Shown: one piece after another, positions 22,768 to 52,846 of the stretch
Numbering within the stretch: position 1 is the first letter of the stretch
Layout of the letters: every line of letters starts with the position of its first letter
Assembly (NCBI GenBank): GCA_004799545.1
Contig: SSMU01000023.1
Span: 248,001-312,000 of the forward strand
DNA: 64,000 nt
Direction of reading: 5' to 3'
Source: Phenylobacterium sp.
GTDB lineage: Bacteria; Pseudomonadota; Alphaproteobacteria; Caulobacterales; Caulobacteraceae
The notes under the pieces: generated by a model
Databases searched by the model: none
Told to the model about the DNA's origin: nothing
Seen by the model: only the letters and a program-made list of their open reading frames with translations
Position numbers and translations under genes: made by a program

Positions 22768-23130
22768 GTGCGGCCCCCGCCCAAGGTATGGATCGGCGTC
22801 GGCGGCTCCGTCGCCTACTGGCTGGCGGTCGCCGGGCTGGCGGCCTTCAACTACCAGCTGGCGTTCGACAAGATCCTCGGGCGCGGCGGCGCCATCCACG
22901 GGCCCAGCCAGCCGGGCTCGGCGGGACGGCCCCTGACGCTGGACCTCGCCCACGCCGCCGGGATGAACCGCGCGGGGCTGACGGTGGCCGCGGCGGCGCC
23001 GATCTTCCTGTGCCTGGTGCTGATGGCCTTCCTCGTGCGGCCGGCCCGGCCGTCCGACGACGACCCGGAGGCGGCGAGCGAGCCGGCGCCGGGCGACAAT
23101 CCGGACCCGCGCCGGCAGCACCCCCGCTGA
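22768..23130 (+). CDS. Small membrane protein
   Basis: A 120-residue protein from GTG 22768 with two predicted membrane helices (about 8-28 and 72-90) joined by a Gly/Pro-rich periplasmic loop (ILGRGGAIHGPSQPGSAGRP) and a charged, disordered C-terminal tail (DDDPEAASEPAPGDNPDPRR). It starts seven bases after the oxygenase stop, so it is probably the last gene of the FecIR operon. I recognise no family. A strong minus-strand terminator lies 40 bases beyond. Confidence 0.6.
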   Translation: MRPPPKVWIGVGGSVAYWLAVAGLAAFNYQLAFDKILGRGGAIHGPSQPGSAGRPLTLDLAHAAGMNRAGLTVAAAAPIFLCLVLMAFLVRPARPSDDDPEAASEPAPGDNPDPRRQHPR

Positions 23131-23161
23131 CTGCGCCAAGGATCGCGCTGGGGCATAGCCC

Positions 23162-23191
23162 AAAAAAAAGCCGCGCCTGGAAAGGCGCGGC
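23162..23191 (-). terminator. Strong Rho-independent terminator of the small RNA
   Basis: On the minus strand GCCGCGCCT pairs with AGGCGCGGC around TTCC (23191-23170), followed by eight T residues (23169-23162). It faces no annotated minus-strand gene, which is what drew attention to the small RNA. Confidence 0.9.
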
Positions 23192-23248
23192 AGTTCATTA
23201 GGGAGGAAACGCCCAGGAAGGGCAGAGACGTCAGAGACGCCTCACAAC
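23162..23248 (-). ncRNA. Candidate small RNA with anti-Shine-Dalgarno motifs (alpha-r8/MmgR-like)
   Basis: On the minus strand a sigma-70 promoter is followed by about 87 bases that fold into three hairpins and end in a textbook intrinsic terminator. Hairpin 1 (23243-23225) is GAGGCGTC/GACGTCTC with a three-base loop. Hairpin 2 (23223-23211) is GCCC-TTCCT-GGGC. A single-stranded linker (23209-23192) holds TTTCCTCCCT. Hairpin 3 is the terminator with loop TTCC. All three loops or linkers are CU-rich and could pair with Shine-Dalgarno sequences. I recall UUUCCUCCCU as the conserved motif of the alphaproteobacterial alpha-r8 family, whose Sinorhizobium member MmgR limits polyhydroxybutyrate. No coding frame of note lies inside. 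The 5' end is inferred. Confidence 0.65.
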
Positions 23249-23520
23249 TCCAATGTACGGTGCACCGCACAAATTGCAAGTCCCGGGACGGCGAAAAAAG
23301 CCCGTGCCGAGTGGTGTCATGGAAAAGTCGCACCTTTTCCATAGCTTGCCTTGGGCGAAATCCGCCCCATATTGCTGCATCGCACAATGTTCTGGGAAAA
23401 ACTCAGGGCGCGAAGCGTCGCGGCCTGCAACTCGCGCTGGCCCTCCGGCGTCGCATCGCCTAATAGCCCGCCTTCGCCGGCGCCAGACGCCCAACCCGCG
23501 CCGAGACCCGAATCCAATCC
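23249..23520. other. Gene-free stretch upstream of typA
   Basis: Together with the small RNA this is the longest region without a protein gene (23131-23520). It holds the small RNA promoter, a hairpin GGAAAAG/CTTTTCC (23321-23340), and the imperfect inverted repeat ATTGTGC...GCAAT (minus 23388-23371). Base composition is clearly lower in GC than the flanks. The typA promoter must lie here but I could not fix it. An 87-codon minus-strand frame across it lacks codon bias and is not accepted. Confidence 0.5.
23252..23279 (-). promoter_or_regulatory. Promoter and possible operator of the small RNA
   Basis: On the minus strand TTGCAA (23279-23274) and TACATT (23257-23252) are 16 bases apart. The spacer contains TTGTGCGGTGCA, which recurs as TTGTGCGATGCA at 23387-23376. 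Such TGC-rich sites resemble what I recall of PhaR-type operators at phasin and polyhydroxybutyrate genes; the identity of the regulator is inference. Confidence 0.5.
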
Positions 23521-25349
<1,829 letters not shown>

Positions 25350-25353
<4 letters not shown>

Positions 25354-51847: not shown

Positions 51848-51967
51848 ACCAGGTTCACGCTGCGGCGCAGCAAAAGGATTGCCGCAGGGCGCTAAACGCG
51901 TGTTAGAAAGCCCACCCCTGCGGAGGGCGCGAGGTCGCGGCCGCTCCGCGCAGCGAGGCTTCGCCGG

Positions 51968-52846
51968 ATGGTTCAGATCAAGCAGGTCGGCGTCATTGGC
52001 GCGGGCCAGATGGGCACGGGCATCGCCCATGTCTGCGCCCTGGGCGGCTATGACGTCCTGCTGCATGACGTCAGCCGCGAGCGGCTGGACGCCGGCATGG
52101 AGACCATCAAGCGCAACCTCAGCCGCCAGGTGGTGCGCGGCATCATCGACCAGGCCGCCATGGACGCCGCGCTGGGCCACATCAAGCCGGCCGCCGAACT
52201 GCAGAGCATCGGCAAGACCGACCTGGCCATCGAGGCCGCCACCGAGGACGAGGAGGTCAAGAAGACCATCTTCAAAGCGCTGCAGCCGCACCTCGCCGAC
52301 AAGACGCTGCTGGCCTCCAACACCTCCTCCATCTCGATCACCCGCCTGGCCTCGGTCACCGACCGGCCGGAGCGGTTCATCGGCCTGCATTTCATGAACC
52401 CGGCGCCGCTGATGAAGCTCGTGGAGATCATCCGCGGCATCGCCACCGACGCGCCGACCTACGAGACCGCCGTCGAGTTCACCAAGTCGCTCGGCAAGAC
52501 CACCGCCAACGCCGAGGATTTCCCCGCCTTCATCGTCAACCGCATCCTGGTGCCGATGATCAACGAGGCGATCTACACCCTCTATGAAGGCGTCGGCACG
52601 GTGGAGGCGATCGACACCGCCATGCGCCTGGGCGCCAACCACCCGATGGGCCCGCTGGAGCTCGGCGACTTCATCGGCCTCGACACCGTGCTGTCGATCA
52701 TGAACGTGCTCTACGACGGCCTGTCGGATTCCAAGTACCGGCCCTGTCCGCTCTTGGTGAAGTACGTCGAGGCCGGCTGGCTGGGCCGCAAGGCCGGCCG
52801 CGGCTTCTACGACTACCGCGGCGAGACGCCGGTGCCGACGCGCTAG
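51968..52846 (+). CDS. hbd: 3-hydroxybutyryl-CoA dehydrogenase
   Basis: Reversibly oxidises 3-hydroxybutyryl-CoA to acetoacetyl-CoA with NAD(P) in C4 acyl-CoA and butyrate metabolism. A 292-residue protein with Rossmann loop GVIGAGQMGTGIAHVCALGG, the catalytic His in GLHFMNPAPLMKLVEII, and FIVNRILVPMINEAIYTLYEGVG plus GANHPMGPLELGDFIGLDTVL, the C-terminal domain signature. It lies downstream of etfBA in many relatives (recalled) but here is separated by the regulator block. It is followed by a long inverted repeat. Confidence 0.94.
   Translation: MVQIKQVGVIGAGQMGTGIAHVCALGGYDVLLHDVSRERLDAGMETIKRNLSRQVVRGIIDQAAMDAALGHIKPAAELQSIGKTDLAIEAATEDEEVKKTIFKALQPHLADKTLLASNTSSISITRLASVTDRPERFIGLHFMNPAPLMKLVEIIRGIATDAPTYETAVEFTKSLGKTTANAEDFPAFIVNRILVPMINEAIYTLYEGVGTVEAIDTAMRLGANHPMGPLELGDFIGLDTVLSIMNVLYDGLSDSKYRPCPLLVKYVEAGWLGRKAGRGFYDYRGETPVPTR

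Follow-up and report, generated by a model that had tools for sequence, protein, structure and literature searches.

Identification of a predicted small RNA upstream of typA

The window, that is, the whole stretch of 64,000 nucleotides analysed from Phenylobacterium sp., carries a predicted gene for a small RNA of approximately 87 nt on the minus strand (23162..23248), which was assigned to the alpha-r8 family (suhB/mmgR, RF00519) by an Rfam match and by its fold. Its divergent neighbour on the plus strand is typA/bipA (23521..25353; TIGR01394, 929 bits against a cut-off of 757.3). The boundary of the RNA is approximate, and its unmapped 5' end at 23248 is the estimate of the initial annotation. 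RF00519 matched positions 23155-23230 of the minus strand with 59 bits against a cut-off of 41 (for the window as a whole, E = 1.3e-9), which bears out the alpha-r8 membership proposed from the sequence alone; the other match above cut-off in the window was a tRNA. GcvB, anti-hemB, SorX and other Rfam names returned for the same stretch all remained below their own cut-offs. The genome (4.03 Mb in 30 contigs) contains a second alpha-r8 copy at C16:321923, while 10 of its 12 suhB matches were below the cut-off.

Folding of the minus strand over 88 nt gave a minimum free energy of -38.8 kcal/mol with a z-score of -5.52, and none of 200 shuffled sequences was equally low. The predicted fold consists of three hairpins (23243-23225, 23224-23210, and 23191-23170) followed by a U-run (23169-23162). 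Hairpin 1 (23225..23243, minus strand) forms the 5' stem and lies largely outside the Rfam match, hairpin 2 (23210..23224, minus strand) exposes a UUCCU loop, and the third is the 9-bp stem of an intrinsic terminator with eight U (23162..23191, minus strand). This terminator was recovered both by the fold and by a terminator scan, for which 0.9 such sites per 701-bp stretch are expected by chance. Between hairpin 2 and the terminator, the 10-mer UUUCCUCCCU (23200..23209, minus strand) is unpaired in the predicted fold. The hairpins, the CU-rich loops (UUCCU, UUUCCUCCCU, and UUCC) and the terminator were thus all present where the initial annotation had placed them, and its reading of UUUCCUCCCU as an anti-Shine-Dalgarno 10-mer was supported. 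Its statement that the terminator faces no protein gene has to be corrected: it faces the end of a 120-amino-acid ORF (22768-23130, plus strand), for which no NCBIfam match was obtained.

The definition of alpha-r8 available in PMC12559287 includes a single-stranded 10-mer UUUCCUCCCU after a short hairpin, and this arrangement and a Rho-independent terminator could both be found in the window RNA. The linkage to an N-formylglutamate amidohydrolase gene, described in the same source for one alpha-r8 copy in most species, with three Caulobacter siblings located elsewhere, is absent here, where profile matching identified typA as the divergent neighbour; the linkage is not a strict one. Overall, the small RNA looks like a genuine regulatory RNA of a known family, a typA-linked copy of alpha-r8 (MmgR/Sis).

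A sigma-70 promoter had also been proposed for the RNA. The TTGCAA element (-35-like; 23274..23279, minus strand) and the TACATT element (-10-like; 23252..23257, minus strand) are separated by 16 bp (23279-23274 to 23257-23252), and a consensus scan demanding 9 of 12 matches reported no promoter at the small RNA. The match to the consensus is therefore weak. The promoter gains support from conservation, as CTTG before the operator and TA after it were conserved in 44 non-redundant promoters.

Conservation and covariation at typA loci

Conservation was assessed in TypA loci, of which the best 80 of 348 were used; most of these bear the label Phenylobacterium or Caulobacter. The exact UUUCCUCCCU 10-mer could be found upstream of typA on the opposite strand in 70 of these best 80 loci, including those of C. 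vibrioides, as anticipated if the RNA is retained in relatives. The exact seed was missing from the remaining ten (L044, L055, L061, L062, L064, L081, L097, L106, L107, and L108). Among them, L061 offered just 16 bases of upstream sequence, L064 had a changed seed yet matched Rfam above the cut-off (58.6 bits), and L044 kept a changed seed and did not reach the cut-off. In L055, L062, and L081, two box-like sites remain upstream of typA with neither a recognisable seed nor an Rfam match above the cut-off; loss of the RNA is possible at these loci.

A structure alignment of 34 sequences was composed of the window and 33 relatives, excluding near-identical rows and the loci L068 and L077, which have a short 5' part. 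In this alignment, 97.9% of the cells could pair, and changes on both sides were present in 9 of the 21 pairs. The covariation score was 0.250, compared to 0.114 for shuffled alignments (0/500) and 0.026-0.068 when the structure was slid along the alignment, in line with the compensatory stem changes across species that a conserved RNA should show. The signal is carried by hairpin 1, in which three of eight pairs had double-sided changes with 97.4% of cells paired, and by the terminator, with double-sided changes in six of eight pairs. Hairpin 2 says little on covariation because its pairs hardly vary (four of five invariant). At the level of the genus, 97 of 100 genomes drawn, the genome under study included, had an RF00519 match above the cut-off. 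One of the loci, L009, contains tandem alpha-r8 copies (G027:C3:1829692-1829768 and 1829851-1829927) in a genome with six matches.

Two predicted PhaR boxes between the small RNA and typA

Operators were sought with a 21-bp PhaR matrix built from 18 sites that the S. meliloti table of PMC12542648 lists as efficient binders confirmed by EMSA. Among the 63,980 positions of the window, the two top-scoring sites both lie between the small RNA and typA. The predicted box 1 (23255..23275; core 23261-23269) occupies the promoter spacer and is the second best of the window with 18.2 bits, so that the PhaR-type operator noticed earlier between the promoter elements is indeed present. The initial annotation had missed a second operator with a higher score, the predicted box 2 (23370..23390; core 23376-23384), which is the best of the window with 25.1 bits and is located on the typA side of box 1 at a distance of 115 bp. 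The published PhaR consensus is matched exactly by box 2; box 1 is absent from the list of exact-consensus sites. The third best site of the window (51855..51875; 16.0 bits) precedes a 3-hydroxybutyryl-CoA dehydrogenase gene (51968-52846, plus strand; NF005715, 539.6 bits, cut-off 420) and could be a further PhaR target.

Both boxes recur at related loci. In the best 80 of 348 TypA loci (950,752 bp), the 700 bp upstream of typA contained 86 sites of at least 15 bits, and the remaining sequence 3. With the window included, 71 loci carried the seed; the box 1 core was found at its place in 69 of them and a box 2 of at least 8 bits in 65. For the 64 loci with both boxes, the distance from the seed to the start of box 1 was 60-63 bp, and that from box 1 to box 2 was 110-134 bp (mean 119.7, sd 6.5), compared to 75 to 286 (sd 49) from box 2 to the start of typA. 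The tight spacing between the boxes against the loose spacing to typA points to the two boxes forming one unit. Column conservation was approximately 2 bits in the cores and 0.1-0.3 bits in most flanking columns, a difference that is partly built in since the rows were picked by the motif; the hit rate of the boxes and their spacing are the firmer evidence.

Eight TypA loci had usable upstream sequence and no Rfam match above the cut-off. Two sites of at least 8 bits were kept in L044, L055, L062, and L081, one site was found in L107, and none in L097, L106, or L108. When all eight are considered, the case for box 2 belonging to the RNA becomes weaker. Looping of the DNA at one helical phase was also considered and rejected, as box spacings of 103-134 bp share no phase; bridging of the two sites is possible.

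The PhaR system of the genome and other boxes

A PhaR regulon calls for a phaR gene in the genome and a PhaR box at the promoter. The box at the small-RNA promoter is supported by the matrix and by its conservation, and profile matches revealed that PhaR, a phasin, and PhaC are all encoded in the genome; the PhaR gene matched PF07879 with 107.3 bits and TIGR01848 with 159.9 (cut-off 109.45). PhaR was detected in 95 of the 100 genus genomes, the genome under study included.

The exact PhaR consensus occurs at eight places in the genome, namely box 2, a phasin promoter, a PhaZ gene, two sites at an ExbB/TolQ-like gene, and three others. A reversed control pattern likewise occurs at eight places, and because the two counts are equal, the argument for PhaR rests on the identity of the genes and not on the number of sites. 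In the phasin promoter, the matrix finds another box 28 bp from the consensus box, and the box of the PhaZ depolymerase gene starts 31 bp before the gene. The two consensus sites before the ExbB/TolQ-like gene (L119, 1501-1521 and 1567-1587; G000:C3:197303-197389) are 66 bp apart, and from these sites the PHB state may touch the energising of TonB or Tol.

A second class of alpha-r8 siblings could be recognised in the genus, comprising 12 loci (L010-L016, L019, L026, L027, L030, and L032) with the common promoter CTTGCGTGCRSTGCAGCAAA and a PhaR box adjoining the start. The promoter of the second copy of this genome (C16:321923) contained no PhaR box.

Distribution of the boxes across the order and the class

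Draws of 60 genomes across the order and 115 genomes across the class yielded 129 fetched alpha-r8 loci, including five from the same genus; these are a subset of the alpha-r8 matches listed, most of those below the cut-off having been left out. For the promoter count, the 116 loci with TTTCCTCC were used and the 13 without it were excluded. A PhaR box of at least 12 bits was present 40-115 nt upstream in 82 of these 116 promoters, compared to 367 of 5800 dinucleotide shuffles (6%) reaching 12 bits. In an earlier count, the box was present in 77 of 108 promoters and in 26 of 2554 background windows. Among the 93 genomes that have both PhaR and a fetched alpha-r8 locus, 72 had a box of at least 12 bits and 21 had none. 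A box was also present in two of the five genomes with a fetched locus in which PhaR was not detected. The unboxed PhaR-positive genomes and the boxed PhaR-negative ones count against control by PhaR.

A second box at 103-131 bp was observed in 16 of the 82 boxed loci, where approximately 0.2 would be expected at a background of 6.7e-5 per position. In the class draw, 47 families had a seed-bearing fetched locus; 33 of these families had the box, and in 12 it was accompanied by another one located 100-135 bp further upstream. The divergent neighbours in the wider draws vary, five being lytic transglycosylase-like and one ABC permease-like on inspection by eye. Another arrangement, box pairs 17-21 bp (approximately two helical turns) apart, was seen in 11 promoters of other families (L132, L140, L143, L149, L150, L157, L161, L163, L178, L191, and L206).

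Comparison with known alpha-r8 RNAs

The 2018 mmgR paper reportedly names a conserved heptamer between the -35 and -10 elements of mmgR. A dyad controlling mmgR is placed between -35 and -10 in the available text of a review (PMC8401924), and EMSA experiments in PMC12542648 showed binding of S. meliloti PhaR/AniA to the mmgR promoter. According to the available parts of reviews including PMC8401924, MmgR of S. meliloti keeps PHB in check and has an effect on two phasins, with AniA/PhaR as its repressor and NtrC as its inducer. As far as these sources describe MmgR, it shares with the window RNA the family, three predicted stem-loops, and a PhaR-type site between -35 and -10, of which the core TGCACCGCA is identical to that of the window read on the plus strand. 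In contrast, MmgR is the sole copy in S. meliloti (accessible text of PMC12559287), whereas the genome studied here has a second one, and one PhaR site is listed for MmgR in the table of PMC12542648, compared to two for the window RNA, which has typA as its neighbour. In relation to the PhaR/AniA regulon of phasin and PhaZ, the same type of box precedes both genes in this genome, while the window sites differ in flanking a small-RNA promoter at a long, constrained spacing.

The window RNA does not extend the family to Caulobacterales, as had been suggested, because an early description of the suhB element (PMC1273637, 2005) already gave four copies in C. crescentus and these were characterised in 2025 as the alpha-R8 RNAs SisA-D (PMC12559287). 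The suhB paper concerns the same RNA family as the window copy and proposes no regulator in the text available. The four Caulobacter copies are named alpha-r15 in the corresponding part of PMC6561178 and alpha-R8 in that of PMC12559287. The latter describes that SisA represses mRNAs together with Hfq via the same 10-mer and is sponged by CrfA, and its available text reports no shared motif among the SisA-D promoters. As far as the accessible sources go, co-immunoprecipitation with Hfq has been published for R0014, R0133, R0143, and R0157, which are the C. crescentus siblings. SisA-D and the window RNA belong to the same family, have the same 10-mer, and come from related bacteria, and the C. 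vibrioides loci L110 and L111 carry a typA-linked alpha-r8 copy like that of the window. The words PhaR and typA are absent from the main text of PMC12559287, whereas typA linkage and PhaR boxes are features of the window RNA. A PhaR link for Caulobacter alpha-r8 genes, or a second PhaR box, was not met in the accessible part of the open-access literature; the RNA is of a known kind, and the novelty within that literature lies in the paired PhaR sites.

Proposed control by PHB and PhaR

The sequence data establish the family of the RNA, its predicted structure and how it is conserved, as well as both boxes and the PhaR components of the genome. Its transcription, the binding of PhaR, repression, derepression by PHB, the use of Hfq, and the targets we infer by analogy to MmgR and SisA. 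Taken as a whole, we hold it probable that the typA-linked alpha-r8 RNA is repressed by PhaR, is derepressed by PHB, and blocks ribosome binding sites. Free PhaR would bind box 1 within the promoter spacer and keep the RNA off, perhaps assisted from box 2, 115 bp away. PHB granule formation would draw PhaR onto the granules and the RNA would then be made at the same time as phasin and PHB depolymerase, so that stored carbon probably switches the small RNA on. With Hfq, the UUUCCUCCCU seed would pair with Shine-Dalgarno regions and lower the translation of selected mRNAs, and the RNA may thus restrain storage or uptake. With two boxes, the phasin and PhaZ boxes, and wide recurrence, the role suggested for PhaR has a stronger basis than the initial annotation could know.

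A genome search for the complement of the seed 3-10 bases before ATG returned 15 places, compared to none for the reversed control. Nine of the 15 open an ORF of at least 144 amino acids; two of these nine encode enoyl-CoA hydratases and one a TonB-dependent receptor. Since the pattern resembles a strong Shine-Dalgarno sequence, these sites are only leads, including the two that bear on the acyl-CoA targets suggested by the initial annotation. Phasin and PhaZ were also considered as targets by duplex energy; such energies ignore accessibility, and no inference was drawn.

The reading that competes most directly assigns box 2 to typA, with PhaR separately repressing the translation GTPase and box 1 alone serving the RNA. 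This could be the case, and we are inclined to doubt it. Box 2 does sit between the RNA promoter and typA, several of the 12 inspected loci with a far second box have a divergent ORF beyond it, and the two sites kept in L044, L055, L062, and L081 indicate that boxes can outlast a good RNA. Against this stand the 64 loci in which box 2 follows box 1 tightly and typA loosely, as well as four of the Rfam-negative loci, L097, L106, and L108 being siteless (L106 and L108 look like close kin) and L107 having one site. Further, no conserved promoter adjoining box 2 was seen in the column conservation, and 12 of the 47 class-draw families likewise have another box at 100-135 bp, with other neighbours where inspected.

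It is less probable, and in our view unlikely, that the TGC boxes of the same RNA are bound by a different regulator with a similar site and that another signal controls it. PhaR was undetected in five genomes with a fetched alpha-r8 locus, of which two carry the box; G068, a genome with no detected PhaR, keeps both boxes; and many Caulobacteraceae sites score low, 53 of 71 promoters reaching 12 bits with the Sinorhizobium matrix. However, the phasin and PhaZ promoters of this genome are likewise picked up by both the published consensus and the matrix, and PhaR binds mmgR in S. meliloti. We give very little credence to a constitutive SisA sibling without a PHB link whose boxes are inherited and inert. 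According to the available text of PMC12559287, SisA is nearly constitutive and the sibling promoters are unrelated, which would suit such an RNA, but inert sequence would drift, and this disfavours it: the narrow distances of box 1 from the seed and of box 2 from box 1 hold in 64 loci amid mostly low-information flanking columns.

Beyond this locus, control of alpha-r8 RNAs by PHB and PhaR is extended here only as a tentative proposal, which we consider rather doubtful in its full breadth. Many alpha-r8 genes across the Alphaproteobacteria would have a PhaR switch made of two sites, the first located in or close to the promoter and the second approximately 100-135 bp away, working as one unit, perhaps through a bridging PhaR multimer. 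The RNA would then be a readout of PHB granules, and the switch may tie in the divergent gene, typA in this case. In Caulobacteraceae, the PHB input would fall on the typA-linked copy and one further sibling class, excluding the second copy of this genome. The PhaR boxes mark, with exact bases, which alpha-r8 siblings should respond to PHB, and if the box pair acts jointly, it would represent a long-range and widespread mode of control that a storage polymer exerts on a bacterial small RNA.
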